Assembly (NCBI GenBank): GCA_027887045.1
Contig: JAPCJH010000001.1
Location: 434,001-498,000, forward strand
DNA: 64,000 nucleotides
Direction: 5' to 3'
Origin: Nitrososphaerota archaeon
GTDB taxonomy: Archaea > Thermoproteota > Nitrososphaeria > Nitrososphaerales > Gagatemarchaeaceae
Shown here: in pieces, positions 2 to 55,189 of the stretch
Position numbering within the stretch: position 1 is the stretch's first letter
How the letters are laid out: every line of letters begins with the position of its first letter
Position numbers and translations under genes: made by a program
Notes under the pieces: model-generated
Seen by the model: only the letters and a program-made list of their open reading frames with translations
What the model was told of the DNA's origin: nothing
Databases searched by the model: none

Positions 2-1723
2 CTCTGCAGGAGGGCCTTGTTGGGGGAGCTAGAACCGCTGGAGCTTTACGAGATGCCATTCGACGCCGCGGTTCATCAGATGGCCGGGCTGCTGATCGAG
101 CGTAGCTCGTGGAACCTTAACGATATGCATCAACTGTTCAGGAGGGCTTACCCTTACTCCGAATTGAGCTTTGAGACCCTCAAAAGGCTAGCGACGTATA
201 TGCGTGACAGGTACCCCAGGCTCGCTTACTACAACGACGCGGAGAACAGGCTGTCAAGGTCGAGGGACATAAAACCGCTCTTCACCTACTATTTCGAGAA
301 TCTTTCGATGATACCTGACGAGAGGCAGTACATCGTCATAACAGGAGGAGATACTATGGTGGGGGCGCTAGACGAAGCTTTCGTCTCTGAATACGGGGAG
401 GTGGGTGTGAAGTTTGTCGAAGCTGGCAGGTGTTGGAAAATCGAGCAAATTTACGGGAACAAGGTGTACGTGAAGCCCGAAGAGGACCCAACGGGCGCCG
501 TTCCTAACTGGGTCGGGGACGAGATACCCGTGCCGAGAGCGGTGGCGCTCGAAGTGGGAGCGTTGAGGCGCGGGTACGCGGAGAGCATCTTAGAACGACG
601 AGCTGAGGAGTTCGTTTCTGCCACTCTCGAGCGGTACCCGGTGCAGCGAGACACTCTGATGGATGCGCTCAGGGAAGTGGAGGAACAGGTCGCAGCCGGG
701 ATTCCCTTACCCTCGGACAAACTGGTCACCATCGAGAAGTGGGACAGATACGTGGTAATCCAAGCCTGCTTCGGACACAAGGTCAACAGGCTCCTCGCGA
801 GGGTCATAGGGTACCTTCTTTCGGAGAGAATCGGCCAGGCGGTCGCGGTTCATCAGGACCCGTACAGGATTGTGATAGAGGCTGATGTGTCAGCGAAGAC
901 CGTCCGCACCGTAACCGAAGAGCTCTTCAAAATGGACCTTCAAGTTGCGGCAGAAAGGGCGGTAGAGAGGTCAGGGATATTCAAGAGGAGAATCCTCCAT
1001 GCAGGAAAGAAACTCGGCACTATCTCGAAGGACGCGGATTATGCAAGCGTCTCAATCGCCGGGTTGATCGAGGCCATGAAGGATACCCCAGTCTATGATG
1101 AAGCCATGAAGGTGATTTTTCACGATGACTTCGACGTCAAAGGGGCGCGGGAGATGGTCGCCAAGATCATGGGAGGGGAGATAACCGTGCAGGAGCTGGA
1201 TATCGATGTGCTGTCTCCCATCGCGAGGATAGGTATCGAAGAGATCAGCAGGCGGGGGGAGATAGTTTCCCCCGAAAGACTTCGTGCGCTTCTGAGGCAA
1301 TCTACACGAGCCCGCATCCTGGACACGTTTCTCGTCGCCGTTTGCACGCACTGTTGGGAGTTCCTCGAGCTGAGACGGGTCCGCGACCTGGAGGGATTGG
1401 ACAAATGTCCGCGGTGCGGTCGAGATGCGATCGGGCTCTCCAGCGAGTCCTACGAGACGGTTTTCTCGCTTGCGCTGAAGGCTAGGAGTAGGACGACATT
1501 CCACGGTAAGAAGCTGAAGCTTCTCAATTCACTTCAAAAGTCGGCTGAGATGAGAAAAGAATACGGCCACGCCCTGGACCTTGTCCTCGCTGGACGTGGG
1601 ATCCGATTGATTGACGCTGCAAACCTGCTCACAAAGATGAAGAAAGAGGGGACGGATGTCGTCGACCTGGTGATCGATGGCGAGCGAGAAGCCCTACGAA
1701 GAAGGTATTTCGCCACTCCGTGA
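2..1723 (+). CDS. Lhr-type superfamily 2 helicase, C-terminal part (5' end outside window)
   Basis: The reading frame is open from base 2, so the window holds only the last ~570 residues of a larger protein; the TTG at base 17 is not a believable start. The fragment resembles the C-terminal half of archaeal Lhr (large helicase-related) proteins, which follows the two RecA-like motor domains. A CxxC...CxxC zinc-binding cluster (CTHC near residue 443, CPRC near 463) fits this region. Lhr enzymes are DNA-translocating helicases linked to repair. No helicase motifs can be checked here. The 3' end overlaps the convergent Nse3-like gene by 30 bp. In many archaea Lhr lies beside an ICC-type phosphoesterase, as it does here (about 4 kb away). 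The family call rests on overall resemblance. Confidence 0.75.
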   Translation, partial: LCRRALLGELEPLELYEMPFDAAVHQMAGLLIERSSWNLNDMHQLFRRAYPYSELSFETLKRLATYMRDRYPRLAYYNDAENRLSRSRDIKPLFTYYFENLSMIPDERQYIVITGGDTMVGALDEAFVSEYGEVGVKFVEAGRCWKIEQIYGNKVYVKPEEDPTGAVPNWVGDEIPVPRAVALEVGALRRGYAESILERRAEEFVSATLERYPVQRDTLMDALREVEEQVAAGIPLPSDKLVTIEKWDRYVVIQACFGHKVNRLLARVIGYLLSERIGQAVAVHQDPYRIVIEADVSAKTVRTVTEELFKMDLQVAAERAVERSGIFKRRILHAGKKLGTISKDADYASVSIAGLIEAMKDTPVYDEAMKVIFHDDFDVKGAREMVAKIMGGEITVQELDIDVLSPIARIGIEEISRRGEIVSPERLRALLRQSTRARILDTFLVAVCTHCWEFLELRRVRDLEGLDKCPRCGRDAIGLSSESYETVFSLALKARSRTTFHGKKLKLLNSLQKSAEMRKEYGHALDLVLAGRGIRLIDAANLLTKMKKEGTDVVDLVIDGEREALRRRYFATP

Positions 1724-2260
1724 GAGAATCAGCGTCATCAATGTCCTCTCATCGATCTCGGCCCTCGTCCGCCACCCGATTCTCAAGAGCGATTTGTCGT
1801 CTTGATCGATGTAGCCGCGTTTCACGTACCTGTCGACCGAATATTCCACTCGCCATTTGGGGAACTTCTCCCTTAGGAATTGTTCAAGCTCACGTCGCCC
1901 GACCCTTCCCTGTTTGGAGTTGATGAATGCGATTGATGACGCGAGGACGGCGAGGTCGTCAATTCTGATGCCCGCGGTCTCGGCCTCGCTCAGGGATGGC
2001 GGTTCCTTGAACCGGAGCATGTATCGGGTGGAATCGTCCGACCCGTCAGCGCCCTTCACCTGGTATACTTCCAGTCCCATCGGAGCGATGTCTTCAGACA
2101 AGACTTCGAGGATTTTCTTGTAATCCTTCCCGAGATGTCTCTTCATCTCCCACCCCTTCACTCCCGGGTTCCTCCCCCGTTGGAGGATGAGCACTTGGAA
2201 GCTCTTCCGGACCTTGCGTTCCAGTAGGGCGCGCTCCGGTTCCATGCTATTGGTCACCAA
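1694..2260 (-). CDS. MAGE/Nse3-like tandem winged-helix (KITE-type) subunit of an SMC complex
   Basis: A 188-residue protein, third gene of a tight SMC operon; its start overlaps the end of the kleisin-like gene by 14 bp. It reads as two winged-helix units. The first (about residues 25-85) includes a segment ending in GLEVYQV, like the MAGE WHA domain. The second (about 100-170) ends in YVKRGYI followed by WRTRAE near residue 163, closely resembling the WGPRAxxE hallmark of MAGE/Nse3 WHB domains. KITE proteins (ScpB, MukE, Nse1/Nse3) bind the kleisin and regulate SMC ATPases. Position and size fit that role. The MAGE relationship is my reading of motifs, not a database result. A generic ScpB-like protein is the alternative. 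Confidence 0.6.
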   Translation of the reverse strand: MVTNSMEPERALLERKVRKSFQVLILQRGRNPGVKGWEMKRHLGKDYKKILEVLSEDIAPMGLEVYQVKGADGSDDSTRYMLRFKEPPSLSEAETAGIRIDDLAVLASSIAFINSKQGRVGRRELEQFLREKFPKWRVEYSVDRYVKRGYIDQDDKSLLRIGWRTRAEIDERTLMTLILSRSGEIPSS

Positions 2261-3002
2261 CCGGAATCGCGACAGACTTCGCCTCGCCGGTCGCCTTTCC
2301 GTTCACCCATGCAACCGATATCTTGTTGCTGAGCGGGTCGATCTGAATTACGGCCCTCCCCTCGCTTATCAAGAAAGCTAAAATGTAGGAGCGCAGGATT
2401 GTCTCGTCGACCGACTTCCCCTTCACAAAGTCCCTGTAGTCGATCCACTCCTCCCCGGACTTCAGCTTGAGCTCGTCGTCGATGGAGTTCAACCTGGTTT
2501 CGAACTGGTCCTGCGTGAAGATCTTCAGGTCAACGAGGTCCTGGTAGTCTACAATCCCGGGCCTCGTGCCGTAACTTCCAAATTGGTCCTTGAACCTCTC
2601 CGACATTGGGGCTAGGTCTCTCCAGTAGACGAACGCCCTCTCGAGACCCTGAGGAGAGAGCTGGTCAATTTGGGCCAATGGGTGCCAGCTTTTGACGAAG
2701 GCGGCCGCGAGTTCATTCTTGGGGAGGAGCTTCACCTTGAGTTGCACCAAGAGGGGATCGATGTAGAGGGACGAGGCTCTGTGTTTGAGCCACTGGTCCT
2801 GGAGCTTCACGACCTGAGAAAGTTCGACCAAGGCTTGAGAGTCTAGAAGAAGGTCATCCAGGAATTCCCAGTCAGGGAGATGCTTCTTCAGGACCAGGAT
2901 CTTGTCAAGGATGTCCACATCAAAGGGGTTCGCACTCGAGTGTTGGACGTCCTGGAGCAGCGCGATGAGTCTGAGGATGTCCTCGAGTCGTTTGTTCGCC
3001 AT
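2247..3002 (-). CDS. Nse4-like kleisin of an SMC complex
   Basis: A 251-residue protein starting 1 bp after the SMC-like ATPase gene stops. The N-terminal half is helical, as expected of the segment that binds the SMC neck. The C-terminal ~50 residues (about 197-240) match the kleisin winged-helix pattern: DETIL, then a hydrophobic helix containing LAFLISEGRA, then a beta strand. This resembles the Nse4 C-terminus (pattern TVEN...FLIRDG) more than ScpA. Kleisins bridge SMC head domains and recruit KITE proteins, and here the next gene encodes a KITE candidate. The operon gives the strongest support. Assignment to Nse4 rather than another kleisin is inference. Confidence 0.6.
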   Translation of the reverse strand: MANKRLEDILRLIALLQDVQHSSANPFDVDILDKILVLKKHLPDWEFLDDLLLDSQALVELSQVVKLQDQWLKHRASSLYIDPLLVQLKVKLLPKNELAAAFVKSWHPLAQIDQLSPQGLERAFVYWRDLAPMSERFKDQFGSYGTRPGIVDYQDLVDLKIFTQDQFETRLNSIDDELKLKSGEEWIDYRDFVKGKSVDETILRSYILAFLISEGRAVIQIDPLSNKISVAWVNGKATGEAKSVAIPVGDQ

Positions 3003-3003
3003 T

Positions 3004-5019
3004 TTATTTGCTCCTGAGCTCCCTCACTTCGGTCGCGCCGTGCGCCGCCTGCACGGTGATGACATGGGCGCTTCTGTCGAAGACCGTGAGTATGGAGGGA
3101 GTTATCACGATGTATTGGGAACCTTGCTTGCCCTTGATGTGGGAAAGTATCATTTTGAACATGGCCTCGCGGTTCTTCGGATCCATGTGGATGTCGAACT
3201 CGTCCAGTGCCCTCATCGGCGAAATGACTCTCCCCTGCAGGGAGAGGATGAAAGCCATCAGCGCCACTGACCTCTCACCCCCACTCTGGGTGAAGGGGTC
3301 GAGAGTCGTAGGTGCCGTTCCTCGGAAACCGACGTTGAGTTGGATTCCCGCGTCCTCGATGTCGCCAGCTTCCTCAAGTCTGACGAAGCCAGTCGCGTCT
3401 GTCGCTGCGAGTATCGCCTGGTAGTCGGGATTGATCCCCTCGAGCAGCCTGGTGAGGGCGTCTTTCCATACCTTCTTCCTGCTTTCGAGCTCGCCGAGGA
3501 GGACCTTCTTGTTATCCTGAAGCTTCAGTAGTTTGACCTTCAGTTCTTCGATGTTCCCGGAGTAGTCGTTGTAGATTTTCTCTGCTTCTTCAGGGACGTC
3601 TTGCAGCTTCTGCAGATGGGCCGAGACTAGCTTGAGCTCTTCTGATATCTCGTACGGTTGCCTTTGGGTCTCTATCCGTGATCCAGCCTTCTCCAGGTCG
3701 GGCCTCAACCGCTCGAGCTCGTCCTTGTACTCTCTCGATGACCTTTCCAGCTCCCTAATCTCCGACTCAGTTACTTTGATTCTATAGGAGAGCACCTCCG
3801 ATCTCACTCTGAGCGAGATGTAGGTGTCGATGCTCCTCCTGATTGTGTCGTCGATCCTTCCTATTTCGGGCTGCAGAGAGGAGACCTCTCGATCGAGCTC
3901 GCTCTTCCGTCTGCTCGCCTCCTCCACTCCCTTAACCTCCCTGTCCAACAGATAGTCGAGGAGCTCGCGAAGGCGCTTCGCGTCTTTCTGCCCCTGCTTG
4001 TCCGCAATCAGCTCGTCGATCGTCTTCGATAGGCCCTCGAGCTCGTCGTGGATTCTCTTTGTGGTGTCCCGAGTGGCCTCGTCTCTAGACCTCTCCTTTT
4101 CGGCCCTGATGAGCGCGCCGTAGAGCTTCCTGAGCTCGACCTGCTTGTCGAGCAGCGTCTGGTGGGACTTCGACGCCTCTTCTTCGACGTCCTTCTGCTG
4201 GTCTTTCAGATTCGCCAAACTCTTCACCTTGCCCGTAAGTCGATCTTCGACCGATTGGAGAGATTTCACTAGCTTCGCCTCGGTGCTCCAGACGAGTTCC
4301 TTCTCCAGCAACGCCCGATGCTCGGTTAGATTCTTCTTTTCGAGGAATCGGTCGTATATCTGCTTCCAGTATTCGAGCGCTTGGTTCGCATTTTCGATAA
4401 GCTGCGACATTGAAGTTTCCTCGCTCGTCAGCCCGTTGAGTTCATTCTCGGCGAAAAGGATCTGCTCCCTGTAGTCCGAGAAGCCAACTGCTTCTTCGAC
4501 CATCTTGAGCCTCTGTTGCGCAGAAACGGCCCCGAGCTCCTCGATCATCCCCTGGTGCATAATTATCAAGAGGTTGTCTGGATTCATCCCGAACTCCCTT
4601 AGTAGCCGGACAACTTCGCTCTTGTCGATCTCCTTGTAGTCGGCTTCAAACCAGTATGAACCGTCCTTCCTCAGATACCGACTGAGCATGAACGTATCAG
4701 ACTTGGAATATGGAATCGGACGCTTTCCGTTTTTCTGCGTGTTATCGAAAACGAGCGACACCCTTGCGATATCTTTTCCCCGCCTGATTAGGTCGCTGAG
4801 TTTCCTTGAACGCTCCGTATAGACCTGACCCAGCGCAACTGAAATTGCGAGGAGGATTGAAGACTTGCCCGCGCCGTTCGGCCCCACTATGAGGTTCAAG
4901 CCGCCTTTGAGAGGAATCCTCCCATATTCGTAGCTCATGAAGTTCTCGAGAATTATTTCCTTGATGCTCGTGAGGGTTGATTCTGCTTCTTTGGAAATCT
5001 CCTCGACCCTCTTTGACAA
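3004..5019 (-). CDS. Short hinge-less SMC-family ATPase, Smc5/6-like
   Basis: A 671-residue ATPase with TTG start. Walker A GPNGAGKS lies at residues 46-53, the ABC signature QSGGERS at about 578-584, and a Walker B/D-loop region ALDEFDIHMDPKNR at about 604-617. The last motif closely resembles Smc6 (LDEFDxxMDxxNR) rather than the typical SMC LDExDAxLD. Between the heads are two coiled-coil arms of about 170 residues, meeting near residue 340 in a short polar turn. No ~150-residue hinge domain and no CxxC zinc hook is visible. It heads an operon with kleisin-like and MAGE-like genes, pointing to a DNA-entrapping complex. It may belong to archaeal SMC-related families reported recently; this was not verified. 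Confidence 0.85.
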   Translation of the reverse strand: MSKRVEEISKEAESTLTSIKEIILENFMSYEYGRIPLKGGLNLIVGPNGAGKSSILLAISVALGQVYTERSRKLSDLIRRGKDIARVSLVFDNTQKNGKRPIPYSKSDTFMLSRYLRKDGSYWFEADYKEIDKSEVVRLLREFGMNPDNLLIIMHQGMIEELGAVSAQQRLKMVEEAVGFSDYREQILFAENELNGLTSEETSMSQLIENANQALEYWKQIYDRFLEKKNLTEHRALLEKELVWSTEAKLVKSLQSVEDRLTGKVKSLANLKDQQKDVEEEASKSHQTLLDKQVELRKLYGALIRAEKERSRDEATRDTTKRIHDELEGLSKTIDELIADKQGQKDAKRLRELLDYLLDREVKGVEEASRRKSELDREVSSLQPEIGRIDDTIRRSIDTYISLRVRSEVLSYRIKVTESEIRELERSSREYKDELERLRPDLEKAGSRIETQRQPYEISEELKLVSAHLQKLQDVPEEAEKIYNDYSGNIEELKVKLLKLQDNKKVLLGELESRKKVWKDALTRLLEGINPDYQAILAATDATGFVRLEEAGDIEDAGIQLNVGFRGTAPTTLDPFTQSGGERSVALMAFILSLQGRVISPMRALDEFDIHMDPKNREAMFKMILSHIKGKQGSQYIVITPSILTVFDRSAHVITVQAAHGATEVRELRSK

Positions 5020-5099: not shown

Positions 5100-5783
5100 T
5101 TGGTCCTCGCCGGCAAGGTATTCGTCGTTAGGGAGAAGTATGAATTATCGCTGCTCGCGGAAAAGCTCAAGACCTTCAAGATTGAATCCGAGATGAAGGT
5201 AGAGGAGACGAGCTTCGACCTCATTTCAGAGGTCAGGGACCTCGTAATTGGGAAGACAACTCTCGAAGGGACTTTTGCGTTCGACTCCGTGTTCGTGGTC
5301 AGGCACAGAGGCAAGTCCGTCCCGATCCCGAGGACGTACGAAGCGCCGTTCACGTTCGACATATACAAGGAGAGATTGTTCCTAACCGTTTATGAGAAGA
5401 AGAGCCGCGCGAACAACATTGCAAATGAGATTAGCAAAGCGGTCTTCCTCAGCCTTGGGCAGATCGTCGAGGCGAGGATTCCTCCGGAGGTGCTGAAGAG
5501 ATACCATGAAGACAACTTTGAGGACACGAAGATAATCTTCTTCGACGACGTGGATATACCGAACATTTCCAAGCTCTCGCTCTATGGCTCTGCGCTAGGT
5601 ATGACGAGCCTCTACAACGAATACCTTGAACACGGGAAGTTATGGTACACGGTCATCAAGTCGAAGAAGTACGGCTACGTTGTGGGCATCACAAGAAACA
5701 GCGTGGTCACGGTCTTCAGCAGAGTGGACCTCCCGGACTTCAAACTCTTCGTCAAGAACGAGATAATTCCGCTGATCGGATAG
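5100..5783 (+). CDS. Conserved-looking protein of unknown function, divergent from the SMC operon
   Basis: A 227-residue soluble protein read from a TTG start 80 bp from the divergent SMC-like gene. I do not recognise the family. It shows mixed alpha/beta composition, no transmembrane segment, no cysteine cluster and no nucleotide-binding loop. The phosphoesterase gene starts 3 bp after its stop, so the two are co-transcribed. The shared intergenic region with the SMC trio and the location between SMC, Lhr and phosphoesterase genes suggest a DNA-repair or chromosome-maintenance link. That is guilt by association only. Confidence 0.7.
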   Translation: MVLAGKVFVVREKYELSLLAEKLKTFKIESEMKVEETSFDLISEVRDLVIGKTTLEGTFAFDSVFVVRHRGKSVPIPRTYEAPFTFDIYKERLFLTVYEKKSRANNIANEISKAVFLSLGQIVEARIPPEVLKRYHEDNFEDTKIIFFDDVDIPNISKLSLYGSALGMTSLYNEYLEHGKLWYTVIKSKKYGYVVGITRNSVVTVFSRVDLPDFKLFVKNEIIPLIG

Positions 5784-5785
5784 GA

Positions 5786-6541
5786 TTGCTCAAGGTAGTT
5801 CCAGGAGAAGCCGCGCTCGTCTTCTCATCAGGCGACACAAAAACTATCCTCGTGTCGGACCTCCATCTCGGTCTGGAGAAGGAGATGGCGAAGAAGGGCT
5901 TCAGTGTTCCGTCTTACTCGATGAAGATGCTCGAGAGAATCAAGAAACTGGGCGAGAAGTTCGCCGCACAGAGGGCCGTGATTCTGGGGGACGTGAAACA
6001 TTCGGTAGGGAAGGTGGAGGACATCGACTGGAGTGTGCTCCCCTGGTTCTTTGGTACCCTCCTGGAGCTTTTCGGTTCGGTCGATATCATTCCGGGGAAT
6101 CACGACGCGGGGATAAAGTCGCTCCTCCCCCCGCGAGTGAGACTCCACACTTCCGGAGGTGCACTCATTGGAGAAGACGGAGACAAGATAGGCGTCTCGC
6201 ACGGCCACGCCTGGCCCTTAGAAGAAGTCATCGCGAGCGGTGACATGGTCATTGGACACTCGCACTTCACATATGAAATGAAGGATAAGTTCGGGGGGAG
6301 ATCGCGGGAGGCCGTCTGGCTTTTCGGACACTATAGAATAGAAGAGCTGATGAAGAAAGCTGGATACAAGAGCAGGCGGAGAGGCGCCGGAAGCCTCGTG
6401 GTCATGCCCCCCTTCAATCGGATGGTCGGCGGTCAGCCAATAAACAGGGGAGACCCAATGCGATTCGGACCCGTGTTGTCTTCTGGGTCGGTGAAACTGA
6501 GTGAGTCAGACATATTCTTGCTGGACGGTACGAGAGTCTAG
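5786..6541 (+). CDS. ICC-type metallophosphoesterase (COG1407-like)
   Basis: A calcineurin-like phosphoesterase of about 251 residues. The metal-binding motifs appear in order: SDLHLG (D-x-H), LGDVKH (GD), GNHD and GHSH, with an SHGH motif between. The start is taken as the TTG at 5786, just after the upstream stop; a longer frame would overlap that gene needlessly. This family frequently accompanies Lhr helicases in archaea, and an Lhr gene is about 4 kb away. The substrate is unknown; a nuclease or phosphodiesterase acting on nucleic acid is the usual assumption. The C-terminal ~60 residues are basic. Confidence 0.85.
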   Translation: MLKVVPGEAALVFSSGDTKTILVSDLHLGLEKEMAKKGFSVPSYSMKMLERIKKLGEKFAAQRAVILGDVKHSVGKVEDIDWSVLPWFFGTLLELFGSVDIIPGNHDAGIKSLLPPRVRLHTSGGALIGEDGDKIGVSHGHAWPLEEVIASGDMVIGHSHFTYEMKDKFGGRSREAVWLFGHYRIEELMKKAGYKSRRRGAGSLVVMPPFNRMVGGQPINRGDPMRFGPVLSSGSVKLSESDIFLLDGTRV

Positions 6542-51896: not shown

Positions 51897-53165
51897 ATGA
51901 GCAAATTCGCACATATGGCCGACGTACATCTCGGAGCTCACAGGGAACCCGCGATGCAGAAACTCGAACTCGCCGCGTTCGACGAGGCGCTCGATCGCTG
52001 CAAAGAACTGGGCGTTGACTTCATCCTGATTTCTGGGGACCTGTTCCACGTCGGGATCCCCGACCTCACTGTCGTGAACTCGGCGCTAAGGAAGATGATG
52101 CAGATCAAGAGGGCCGGGATTCAGATCTATGCGATTTACGGGAGCCACGACTACACGCCAACTGGCACGTCTGTCATCGATATCCTCGATACCGCCGGCG
52201 TAATCGTTAACCTTTCGAAGTGGAAGCTGGAGGGCGGAAAGCTTAGGCTTGCAGTCCATCAGGACGAACGGACTGGAACGAAGCTGGCGGGGATTTCCGC
52301 CAGAAAGATAGGTCTCGAGAGCAAGTACTACGAGATTCTTGACAGGAAGACGCTCGAAGATGAGGAGGGGTTCAAGGTCTTCGCCTTCCACAGCGGGATA
52401 ACTGAATTCAAACCTGAACATCTCCGAGAGATGGAGACCCTAGACATTTCATCGTTTCCGAAGGGGTTCGACTACTACGCGGGAGGCCATATTCACCAAC
52501 GGGGCGAATTTGGAGTGAAGGGATATGAGAAGGTCGTCTTCCCAGGGCCGCTTTTCACAGGCTACGGAAGGGACGTCGAGGACACCGCGAGAGGAGAAAA
52601 ACGAGGTTTCTATCTCGTCGAATTTGATGACAGAATCAGGTCGGTGAAGTTTTCTCAAGTCGAGGCCTTCGGCGGAATCTACCGGGAGTATGCTGTCGGC
52701 GGGAAAAACGCGGCCGAAGTGAATGCGGAACTGGTGCAAGACCTTGCTTCGATTGACGTGAAGGGAAAGGTCGTTGTCATTCGGATCCACGGCGAGCTAG
52801 CGGGAGGGCGCGCGGCCGATATAGATTTCGGCACAGTCAAGAAACAACTCGACGAAAGAGGCGCGCTCTACATCTATCTGAATAGGTACAGCCTCTCCTC
52901 GAAAGAAACCTCGAAAACTTTCATTACTGGTGAAGACTTGTCGGCTATAGAAAGGTCACTCTTCGCAAGGGGGGTCTCGAAAATCAAGGTCTCCCAGCAA
53001 GAGCTCAGTGGAGAGAAGGGCGCGGCCGTCGCCACCGAACTCTTGCGGGTCTTCCGGCAGGGGTCGCGTAGTAACGAGCTGAAGAAGGATTATCGCCAGC
53101 GAATGGTGAAAGACGGCCTTCAGACCCTGAAGTTGCAAGGGATTTCAACGGATGCAGAAAAATGA
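51897..53165 (+). CDS. mre11: Mre11 double-strand break nuclease
   Basis: 422 residues with phosphoesterase motifs ADVHLG (8-13), SGDLFH (about 47), GSHD (usually GNHD), FHSG and GGHIHQRG. Mre11 dimerises and resects DNA ends with Rad50. ATG 51897 with a TATA-like tcttaaagt ~40 nt upstream. It overlaps rad50 by 4 bp (ATGA). HerA and NurA, the usual archaeal partners, are not in the window. Confidence 0.95.
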   Translation: MSKFAHMADVHLGAHREPAMQKLELAAFDEALDRCKELGVDFILISGDLFHVGIPDLTVVNSALRKMMQIKRAGIQIYAIYGSHDYTPTGTSVIDILDTAGVIVNLSKWKLEGGKLRLAVHQDERTGTKLAGISARKIGLESKYYEILDRKTLEDEEGFKVFAFHSGITEFKPEHLREMETLDISSFPKGFDYYAGGHIHQRGEFGVKGYEKVVFPGPLFTGYGRDVEDTARGEKRGFYLVEFDDRIRSVKFSQVEAFGGIYREYAVGGKNAAEVNAELVQDLASIDVKGKVVVIRIHGELAGGRAADIDFGTVKKQLDERGALYIYLNRYSLSSKETSKTFITGEDLSAIERSLFARGVSKIKVSQQELSGEKGAAVATELLRVFRQGSRSNELKKDYRQRMVKDGLQTLKLQGISTDAEK

Positions 53166-55189
53166 TACTCAGGAAGCTTCAGCTGAAGAACATCAGAAGC
53201 TACAAGGCCGCAGAGGTGGAAATTCCTCTCGGCAAGACCCTGTTCGAAGGAGACATCGGAGCTGGCAAATCGACAATCCTGATGGCGATTGAATTTGCGT
53301 TCTTTGGTCTAGGCTCTGAGAGCGGTTCGGCGTTACTGAGGTTGGGCGCGCAGCGGGGCGACGTCCGCGTATCATTTGAAGTAGACGGGGTGGAATACGA
53401 GATTCATAGGACCCTCGTGAGAAAGGGAGCAAGGGTGCAACAGGCAGAGGGTGTCCTGAAGTCTGGGGATTCTGACGCCAACCTCTCTCCTTCAGAGATG
53501 AAAGAGAAGGTCCTCGACATACTTCAGTTCCGAGAGGCGTCGGACCCGAAGGCACAGAGCTGGATCTACCGCTATGCCGTGTACACCCCCCAGGAAGACA
53601 TGAAGAGCGTGCTGCTGCTCGCACCGAGCGACAGACTCCAAATACTCAGGAGGGCATTCGGGATTGAAGACTACAAAACTGCGGCGGAGAATGCCACGGA
53701 ACTCATTGGGGAGTTGAGGACGAGAAAGGCTCGTTTCGAGGCCTTCGCAGTCGGAGCGAAGGAGCTCGAACAGAAAGTTCGTCAGCTCAAGAATGAAAGG
53801 GAGAAACTATTGAGCAGAGTGACGGAACTCACTGACGAAGAGAAGGGGAGAGAACTGCGACTGCAGGAGCTCACAGCCGAAAGGAAGAAGCTTCATGGGG
53901 ATGAGGTGACCTTGAGCGGTATCGTCAGAGAACTTGCCATGAACCGAGACCTTCGCTTGAAACTGGACGAGGAGGTTTCGCGTTCGATGAAAGAGTCTGA
54001 GGACATACGGGCCAAGCTGAAGAAGCTTGAACGAAAGGTCACGGAGCTGAGTAGAATGAGCGATCCGACAGATGTTACTCAGGAGCGGATCCGGAATGAG
54101 TTACAGGATTTGGAAAGGAAGCGTGAGAAACTAACTGTCCTGACAACTCGCGTCGGTGACAAGCTCGAGGAGTACCGATCAATCCTGGAGAATGGAGTCT
54201 GTCCTGTCTGCGACAGGCCGGTAGAATCGAAAGATTTCGGTGAAAGTGAGAAGACGAAGGCCGCCGAACTGGAGCACCTGAAAGTGGAAGCCGACGAATG
54301 TGAACGATCGCTGAGGCGAAAGAAAGAGCTCTTGGAGAAAAAACAGGAGTTTGACTCGGCCATGGGGAAGCTCGTTGACTACGAAGAAGAAGGTGCTACG
54401 CTCAACGACGAACTGACCCGCGCGGATGAACGTGTTTCCGCTGCAAGAGAGGAGCTTTTTGCGCTCGCCGTAAAGATCCGCGAAACTCAGACCGCGGTTG
54501 ACGGCTTGGGGGAAGTATCAAGAAAGCTAGAGGATTTTGAGTCAAGAATCGGGGTGGCGGAAAGGGGGCTCCGCGCTGCGAGGGAAGAGTTGGCGGTCGC
54601 GAAGACTCGATCTACTGATCTGGTGAAGGAGCTTGGCGAGCGCGAAAATGAGATTGAATCAAAGAGCGAATATGCGAAAAGGGTCGATTCCATGAAGGAA
54701 CGCGAAATTTGGATGCAGGACTTCTTCGTCCCCACCCTTGAAGCGATAGAACAGCACGTCCTGACGGCAATCAACCAAGAATTCAATGTGAACTTCCAGA
54801 AGTGGTTCAGCGTGTTGGTCGACGACCCTGAGAAGGAGGTGAGGGTGGACGAGAACTTCACTCCGATCGTGTCGCAGGAAGGATACGAACAAGAAATTTA
54901 CTATTTGAGTGGGGGAGAGAAGACCAGCGTCTCGCTGGCTTACAGGCTCGCATTGAACACTCTGGTTCAACGGGTATCGACAGGAATGAAGTCGAATATC
55001 TTGATATTGGATGAGCCCACGGATGGCTTCAGCAAGGAGCAACTCGGGAGCGTGCAGGAAGTCTTGGATGACGTCGAGTGCCCTCAGATGATAATCGTGT
55101 CGCACGAAAAGGAACTTGAGAGTTTCGCCGACCAGATATTCAGGGTCACGAAATCCCGTGGGGAATCCAGCATTTCTGCCGGCACCTGA
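53162..55189 (+). CDS. rad50: Rad50 ATPase (short form)
   Basis: 675 residues. Walker A GDIGAGKS (about 30-37), zinc hook CPVC (C347, C350) at the tip of the coiled coil, signature LSGGEKTS (about 580) and Walker B ILILDEPTDGF. At 675 residues it is clearly shorter than most archaeal Rad50 (850-900), so the arms are short. The hook and all ATPase motifs are intact, so it should be functional with Mre11. Confidence 0.95.
   Translation: MILRKLQLKNIRSYKAAEVEIPLGKTLFEGDIGAGKSTILMAIEFAFFGLGSESGSALLRLGAQRGDVRVSFEVDGVEYEIHRTLVRKGARVQQAEGVLKSGDSDANLSPSEMKEKVLDILQFREASDPKAQSWIYRYAVYTPQEDMKSVLLLAPSDRLQILRRAFGIEDYKTAAENATELIGELRTRKARFEAFAVGAKELEQKVRQLKNEREKLLSRVTELTDEEKGRELRLQELTAERKKLHGDEVTLSGIVRELAMNRDLRLKLDEEVSRSMKESEDIRAKLKKLERKVTELSRMSDPTDVTQERIRNELQDLERKREKLTVLTTRVGDKLEEYRSILENGVCPVCDRPVESKDFGESEKTKAAELEHLKVEADECERSLRRKKELLEKKQEFDSAMGKLVDYEEEGATLNDELTRADERVSAAREELFALAVKIRETQTAVDGLGEVSRKLEDFESRIGVAERGLRAAREELAVAKTRSTDLVKELGERENEIESKSEYAKRVDSMKEREIWMQDFFVPTLEAIEQHVLTAINQEFNVNFQKWFSVLVDDPEKEVRVDENFTPIVSQEGYEQEIYYLSGGEKTSVSLAYRLALNTLVQRVSTGMKSNILILDEPTDGFSKEQLGSVQEVLDDVECPQMIIVSHEKELESFADQIFRVTKSRGESSISAGT

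Follow-up and report, generated by a model that had tools for sequence, protein, structure and literature searches.

The window analysed here is a 64,000-nucleotide stretch from a Nitrososphaerota archaeon (GenBank assembly GCA_027887045.1, contig JAPCJH010000001.1, positions 434,001 to 498,000 of the forward strand). Near its start, three adjoining genes were found which encode an SMC ATPase, a kleisin and a KITE protein, the subunits of what is probably a small complex of the Smc5/6 type. The source assembly measures 1.2 Mb and is 56% complete, and the nearest named relatives are soil Thaumarchaeota/Nitrososphaerales. The genes (window positions 1694-5019) are read from the minus strand in the order SMC, kleisin, KITE:

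3004..5019, minus strand: hinge-less SMC ATPase, assigned with good support to the Smc5/6 clade (671 amino acids, TTG start; Pfam SMC_N, E = 1.3e-33)
2247..3002, minus strand: kleisin of the Nse4 type (251 amino acids; Nse4/EID3 profile matches, Nse4_C, fold match to 7qcd_F)
1694..2260, minus strand: Nse3/MAGE-like KITE with tandem winged helices (188 amino acids; the ATG at 2245 is the likely true start)

The open reading frames were found exactly where the initial annotation had placed them, and the motifs it had quoted were recovered: the SMC contains RALDEFDIHMDPKNREA, the kleisin SVDETILRSYILAFLISEGRA and the KITE GWRTRAEID. It had also described the genes as tightly coupled. The 1-bp (base pair) gap between SMC and kleisin was correct, but the 14-bp overlap of KITE and kleisin was not retained, as it hinges on an upstream TTG at 2260 (where the DNA reads ...GACCAATAGCATGGAACCG). 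The KITE more plausibly starts at the ATG at 2245, 1 bp past the kleisin stop, because this start is a closer fit to the relatives.

Relatives were collected by scanning 84,980 species genomes for SMC homologues, which gave 268 stretches, and all locus counts below are taken from the best 80 of these 268. Co-occurrence was followed in 61 related genomes and, separately, in 151 genomes of the same phylum. SMC, kleisin and KITE were found together in 57 of the 80 archaeal loci or slightly fewer, with order and strand almost always preserved; the count is 56 if all three genes are required to be complete on the fetched DNA and the window itself is excluded. The trio ranges over Thaumarchaeota, Bathyarchaeota, Hecatellales, Methanomethylicota, Hadesarchaea, Hodarchaeaceae and one Methanophagales genome, and SMC identity among the trio-bearing relatives goes down to about 40%. 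Kleisin and KITE were present in the identical 42 of the 61 related genomes, and in the phylum sample they were found in 67 and 65 genomes, respectively. The shared order, the extent of SMC divergence and the joint occurrence of the two partners place the three-gene set far beyond chance. Loci lacking the trio were mostly ANME-1-type or short contigs.

Family alignments were made for the kleisin profile (A1), the KITE (A2) and the SMC (A3), and predicted structures of kleisin and KITE were used as queries in fold searches. The ABC head of the SMC is bipartite, its two parts being separated by coiled coil; Walker A (residue 46) and SGGE (residue 579) are 533 residues apart:

4861..4884, minus strand: Walker A GPNGAGKS, residues 46-53, read from the sequence and invariant in A3 except A50
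3940..4029, minus strand: coiled-coil tip, residues 331-360, the usual site of a hinge or zinc hook; least conserved and gapped in many members
3274..3285, minus strand: ABC signature SGGE, residues 579-582, invariant in A3
3166..3213, minus strand: Walker B/D-loop RALDEFDIHMDPKNRE, residues 603-618, aligned to Smc6 chain u168047

When the A3 profile was compared with solved PDB chains, Smc6 (6e-54) and Smc5 (1e-49) ranked first, followed by Smc2 (1.5e-42), bacterial Smc (4e-41) and Rad50 (3e-10). Used as a single query, the window SMC also retrieved Smc5/6 first (1e-25 to 3e-21) and then Smc (1.5e-19). Profile alignments paired RAVDEFDxHMDPRNRE, a conserved block, with FRCLDEFDVYMDMVNRR of human Smc6 and the ITP just after it with LLTP, and a counterpart of the SMC segment TQSGGERS was found in Smc5. 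The relatives examined carry one SMC gene of the short type per genome, rather than the two of an Smc5/6-like heterodimer. Since there is a single SMC gene and a single KITE gene, Smc5 is not distinguishable from Smc6, nor Nse1 from Nse3. In the defence annotation, the best PADLOC match to the SMC was mad3 (2e-27), which was set aside as a generic ABC-ATPase match.

The initial annotation had called the SMC hinge-less, and this was upheld. The Pfam hinge domain (PF06470) had no match in the short SMC frame in any of the 61 relatives or the 151 phylum genomes. It did match in 55 of the 61 relatives, always in a separate frame, usually of about 1200 amino acids and never in the one of about 670. 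Conservation at the coil tip was 0.18-0.25, as against 0.7-0.9 in the heads, making the central part the least conserved. The CxxC of a zinc hook was found in none of the 39 short-SMC members, and the window SMC lacks any cysteine. The arms measure about 150-170 residues per side, and the shortest members (about 585 amino acids) come from Methanomethylicota.

A tree was computed from the concatenated SMC head halves, with seven archaeal Rad50 sequences as outgroup; eukaryotic and bacterial head sequences were taken from the profile-search alignments, and the tree was built without Smc1-4. In it, the short SMCs of archaea joined eukaryotic Smc5/6 in one group with support of 100/99 (bootstrap and Shimodaira-Hasegawa-like approximate likelihood ratio test, SH-aLRT), and canonical SMC was separate at 97/97. 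A grouping of the ATPase with Rad50/SbcC, which would have spoken against the initial annotation, was not seen; Rad50 formed a clade of its own. Judged by these head sequences, membership of the short archaeal SMC in the Smc5/6 clade is well supported, if not proven.

As single sequences, both partners gave blank or insignificant results in Pfam, NCBIfam and PDB searches (the window kleisin alone had no Pfam match), and only family profiles were informative. The kleisin profile retrieved Nse4 and its human relative EID3 first among PDB chains (E = 1e-4), with only Nse4 proteins at E < 0.5. Pfam Nse4_C was matched by 21 of 31 kleisin members (best 5.4e-6) and the ScpA model by 0 of 31. The fold search was led by Nse4 (7qcd_F, E = 1.1e-4) and also returned Rad21, the ScpA winged helix and a condensin kleisin, so the proposed Nse4-like kleisin was recovered by profile, domain and fold. 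Helices are predicted in the N-terminal part at residues 2-21, 31-44 and 48-78, where a match of residues 2-73 to ScpA was insignificant (E = 0.35). The C-terminal domain superimposes on the ScpA C-terminal winged helix with a template modelling (TM) score of 0.78 by target length and 2.5 Å over 69 columns:

2304..2546, minus strand: C-terminal winged helix of the kleisin, residues 153-233, with predicted local distance difference test (pLDDT) values of 73-90 over most of 161-230

The KITE model shows tandem winged helices (mean pLDDT 81), and its fold matches were MAGE-G1/Nse3 (5hvq), Nse3 (7dg2_C), Nse1 (7dg2_A), MukE, JetB and ScpB. The best PDB match of the KITE profile was a MAGE protein at E = 0.28, which is not significant alone. 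Pfam MAGE matched 4 of 32 KITE members (best 3.6e-4) and the ScpB model matched 0 of 32; in the KITE of L086, the MAGE match spans the WRxRAE motif through to the end of the MAGE profile. This MAGE sequence evidence is weak and agrees in direction with the fold evidence, in which Nse3/MAGE and Nse1 were best. Taken together they bear out the MAGE/Nse3-like KITE of the initial annotation, including the motif it had assigned to the second winged helix:

1757..1774, minus strand: WRTRAE motif at the end of the second winged helix; W158, R159 and E163 are conserved in A2

A fourth gene, designated X, was found to track the trio:

5100..5783, plus strand: gene X, divergent neighbour upstream of the SMC (227 amino acids), a candidate fourth component

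In 44 loci, gene X immediately adjoins the SMC or lies close to it, on the other strand and divergently transcribed. It was found in 38 of 42 trio-positive relatives but in 0 of 19 trio-negative ones, and in the phylum sample in 61 of 65 KITE-positive but only 4 of 86 KITE-negative genomes (Fisher p = 3e-32, which is over-optimistic given shared ancestry). Searches with its product gave nothing in the PDB at E <= 10 and nothing credible in Pfam; X is a candidate for the fourth component of the complex. In G131, G167 and G209, closed or nearly closed genomes of family f39, X has a distant homologue (E = 1e-22 to 1e-28), although no kleisin or KITE of the trio type was found there.

Other genes noted in the window are:

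2-1723, plus strand: C-terminal part of an Lhr-type helicase (DEAD_assoc, WH_Lhr), conserved in 42 loci
~5783-6541, plus strand: SbcD-related archaeal phosphoesterase (TIGR00024, 8e-21), next to or near X and conserved in 27 loci
51897-55189, plus strand: Mre11-like metallophosphoesterase followed by Rad50 (675 amino acids, CPVC hook), in the same window as the trio

The helicase gene is convergent with the KITE gene and overlaps its end by 30 bp. Because the Lhr helicase and the SbcD-related phosphoesterase are conserved neighbours, a role of the trio in DNA repair is suggested.

These findings uphold the reading of the initial annotation in large part: the product of the operon is quite likely a small SMC-kleisin-KITE complex of the Smc5/6 type, driven by ATP. 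Judging from the established Smc5/6 and Smc-ScpAB families, its stoichiometry would be an SMC dimer with one kleisin and a KITE dimer; with one SMC gene and one KITE gene, both are presumably homodimers. Two SMC copies would pair through their ATPase heads upon ATP binding. As for the interfaces, the kleisin would bridge the pair asymmetrically, with its N-terminal helices on one neck and its C-terminal winged helix on the other cap, and the KITE, probably as a dimer, would sit on the middle of the kleisin and assist in clamping DNA atop the heads. Since the tip has neither hinge nor hook, the complex is expected to be closed at the head side by the kleisin and to work chiefly by clamping DNA, with or without translocation. 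Dimerisation without a hinge could involve tips that meet via conserved coil segments on either side of the variable tip loop (residues ~285-312 and 393-410), or heads and kleisin alone could close the complex. In the cell it would serve genome maintenance, working alongside a canonical SMC in most relatives and, in Methanomethylicota, apparently taking the place of that SMC.

Several observations weigh against this assignment. The approximately unbiased (AU) test did not reject a grouping of Smc5/6 with canonical SMC (p = 0.12) or of the short SMCs with canonical SMC (p = 0.17); with these values, and with Smc1-4 outside the tree, membership in the Smc5/6 clade falls short of proof. The initial annotation had gone further and suggested a "minimal ancestor" or parallel of the eukaryotic complex; the ancestor claim is too strong for these results, as other placements stay unrejected and the hinge may have been lost secondarily. 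When just one Rad50 sequence served as outgroup, its very long branch (8 changes per column) placed the root inside the short group; this was treated as a rooting artefact, and the tree was replaced by the seven-Rad50 tree. The kleisin model is of moderate confidence as a whole (mean pLDDT 67, predicted TM score 0.36), so it is the winged helix that carries its fold match, and two inspected MAGE matches fall below Pfam's own cut-off. Moreover, in most ANME-1-type loci the SMC does not adjoin a kleisin-KITE pair. A solo-SMC variant in ANME-1 was ruled out, since the kleisin was found elsewhere in 9 of 10 genomes searched and the KITE lies beside it in all six loci read (one of the six being the contiguous trio of L063).

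The unrejected grouping with canonical SMC also leaves room for a reduced, divergent Smc-ScpA-ScpB, that is, an old duplicate which lost its hinge, resembles Smc5/6 by convergence or long-branch effects and serves as a second condensin. Both systems are made up of SMC, kleisin and KITE subunits, an ScpA-like gene downstream of canonical SMC is weakly detected by the kleisin profile (2.3e-5), and ScpA and ScpB are among the fold matches. This origin is nevertheless unlikely given the 100/99 support for the Smc5/6 grouping and the preference for Smc5/6, Nse4 and MAGE shown independently by each protein. Canonical Smc-ScpAB is separately present in relatives, its SMC has about 1180 amino acids and a hinge, and Pfam ScpA and ScpB models match no member of the trio partners. 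Even less probable is a Wadjet (JetABCD)-type defence against plasmids or viruses, in which SMC translocation would sense foreign circular DNA. Wadjet and MukBEF do have the same SMC-kleisin-KITE make-up, the KITE has JetB and MukE among its fold relatives, and eukaryotic Smc5/6 has been implicated in anti-viral immunity (PMC10586767). The SMC of the trio, however, is not of the JetC type: PADLOC gave no match to JetA, JetB or JetD and a weak coiled-coil match to JetC (7.7e-7). No nuclease, including one of the JetD kind, was recognised among the trio and gene X, and the trio is lineage-wide with conserved neighbours, as opposed to the sporadic spread reported for Wadjet. Very improbable, finally, is a Rad50/SbcC-like DNA-end-processing ATPase that has two accessory proteins and cooperates with the SbcD-related phosphoesterase and Lhr helicase. 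The arms are short, as in archaeal Rad50, and both genes are conserved neighbours, but the Rad50 profile match is distant and the zinc hook is absent. The window has its own Rad50 with an Mre11-like phosphoesterase, and kleisin and KITE partners are absent from Rad50 systems (PMC10586767).

The Smc5/6-type complex favoured here is in part already known, namely the archaeal SMC5/6-related ATPase. PMC9389158, citing Yoshinaga and Inagaki (2021), describes archaeal "SMC5/6-related" SMC proteins that group with SMC5 and SMC6 of eukaryotes, and the SMC of the trio is very probably of the same ATPase family, a match of descriptions and not of compared sequences. That summary covers only the ATPase, with no mention of a kleisin or KITE, a missing hinge, sole-SMC status or gene X (PMC9389158). 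The literature searched gave no account of the partners, hinge loss, sole-SMC lineages or gene X; overlap with Yoshinaga and Inagaki (2021) is possible, and a 2024 preprint may treat the partners. Another group of archaeal SMC-superfamily ATPases besides canonical SMC is the ASRP family (coalescin ClsN, Sph), most of which carry a zinc hook and have no common neighbours (PMC9389158). In contrast, the SMC of the trio lacks a hook and scores 46 bits on the NCBIfam ASRP model, whose cut-off is 300. The trio also appears to be an exception, in another SMC type, to the view argued from experiments that KITE is generally missing from archaeal SMC complexes (PMC7055376).

Compared with eukaryotic Smc5/6-Nse1/3/4, the likeness lies, by profile and fold, in the head sequence, the Nse4-type C-terminus of the kleisin and the Nse3/MAGE-like KITE. 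The trio differs in having one SMC and one KITE gene, much shorter arms and no hinge, and its operon lacks the Nse1 RING as well as Nse2, Nse5 and Nse6 (Nse2/5/6 were not searched for). With a kleisin and a KITE in the same operon, the archaeal counterpart of Smc5/6 gains its missing pieces, comparable across dozens of archaea. The absence of hinge and hook makes an old question testable, namely which functions of an SMC motor require a distal hinge.

In nearly all relatives, the short SMC is the second SMC of the genome, next to a canonical one. A hinge SMC is present in all 32 good-quality relatives, including families without the trio; it has about 1180 amino acids and the Pfam hinge. One relative (G041) carries a canonical SMC, an ScpA-like gene and ScpB (2.7e-29) plus the trio. 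Because of the separate hinge SMC, the trio in such relatives is a second system and not a replacement. At L120 (3801-4979, plus strand), in a Nitrososphaeria relative, an ScpA-like gene and ScpB follow canonical SMC, giving an archaeal operon of the Smc-ScpAB type.

No hinge match was obtained in 42 of the 65 KITE-positive genomes sampled from the phylum. Equating this with a lack of canonical SMC was ruled out for families f23 and f28, where an SMC of 1128-1161 amino acids has a divergent hinge. Searches with the full SMC model found no frame of about 1100 amino acids in f20 (7 of 7 genomes, all of the Methanomethylicota type and 92-98% complete), only the short SMC of about 595 amino acids, and likewise only the short SMC in f22 (2 of 2 genomes). 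Other matches to the model in f20 and f22 were weaker and came from coiled-coil proteins in frames under about 910 amino acids. A member of f20 and the Methanomethylicota genome of L076 are identical, two more f20 members are close relatives, and the trio appears to be the only SMC-kleisin system in this lineage. It is tentatively proposed, as a possibility on the doubtful side, that a four-part hinge-less complex of the Smc5/6 type (SMC, Nse4-like kleisin, Nse3-like KITE and X) is the sole SMC machine of Methanomethylicota and runs chromosome maintenance there. If true, an SMC motor would not need any distal dimerisation domain in order to work. The sole-SMC lineages and the coupled gene X offer direct genetic and biochemical entry points. 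Methanomethylicota loci were also observed to have an extra gene of about 510 amino acids between the SMC and X (L076, 4200-5738, minus strand; L142, 3539-5113, plus strand).

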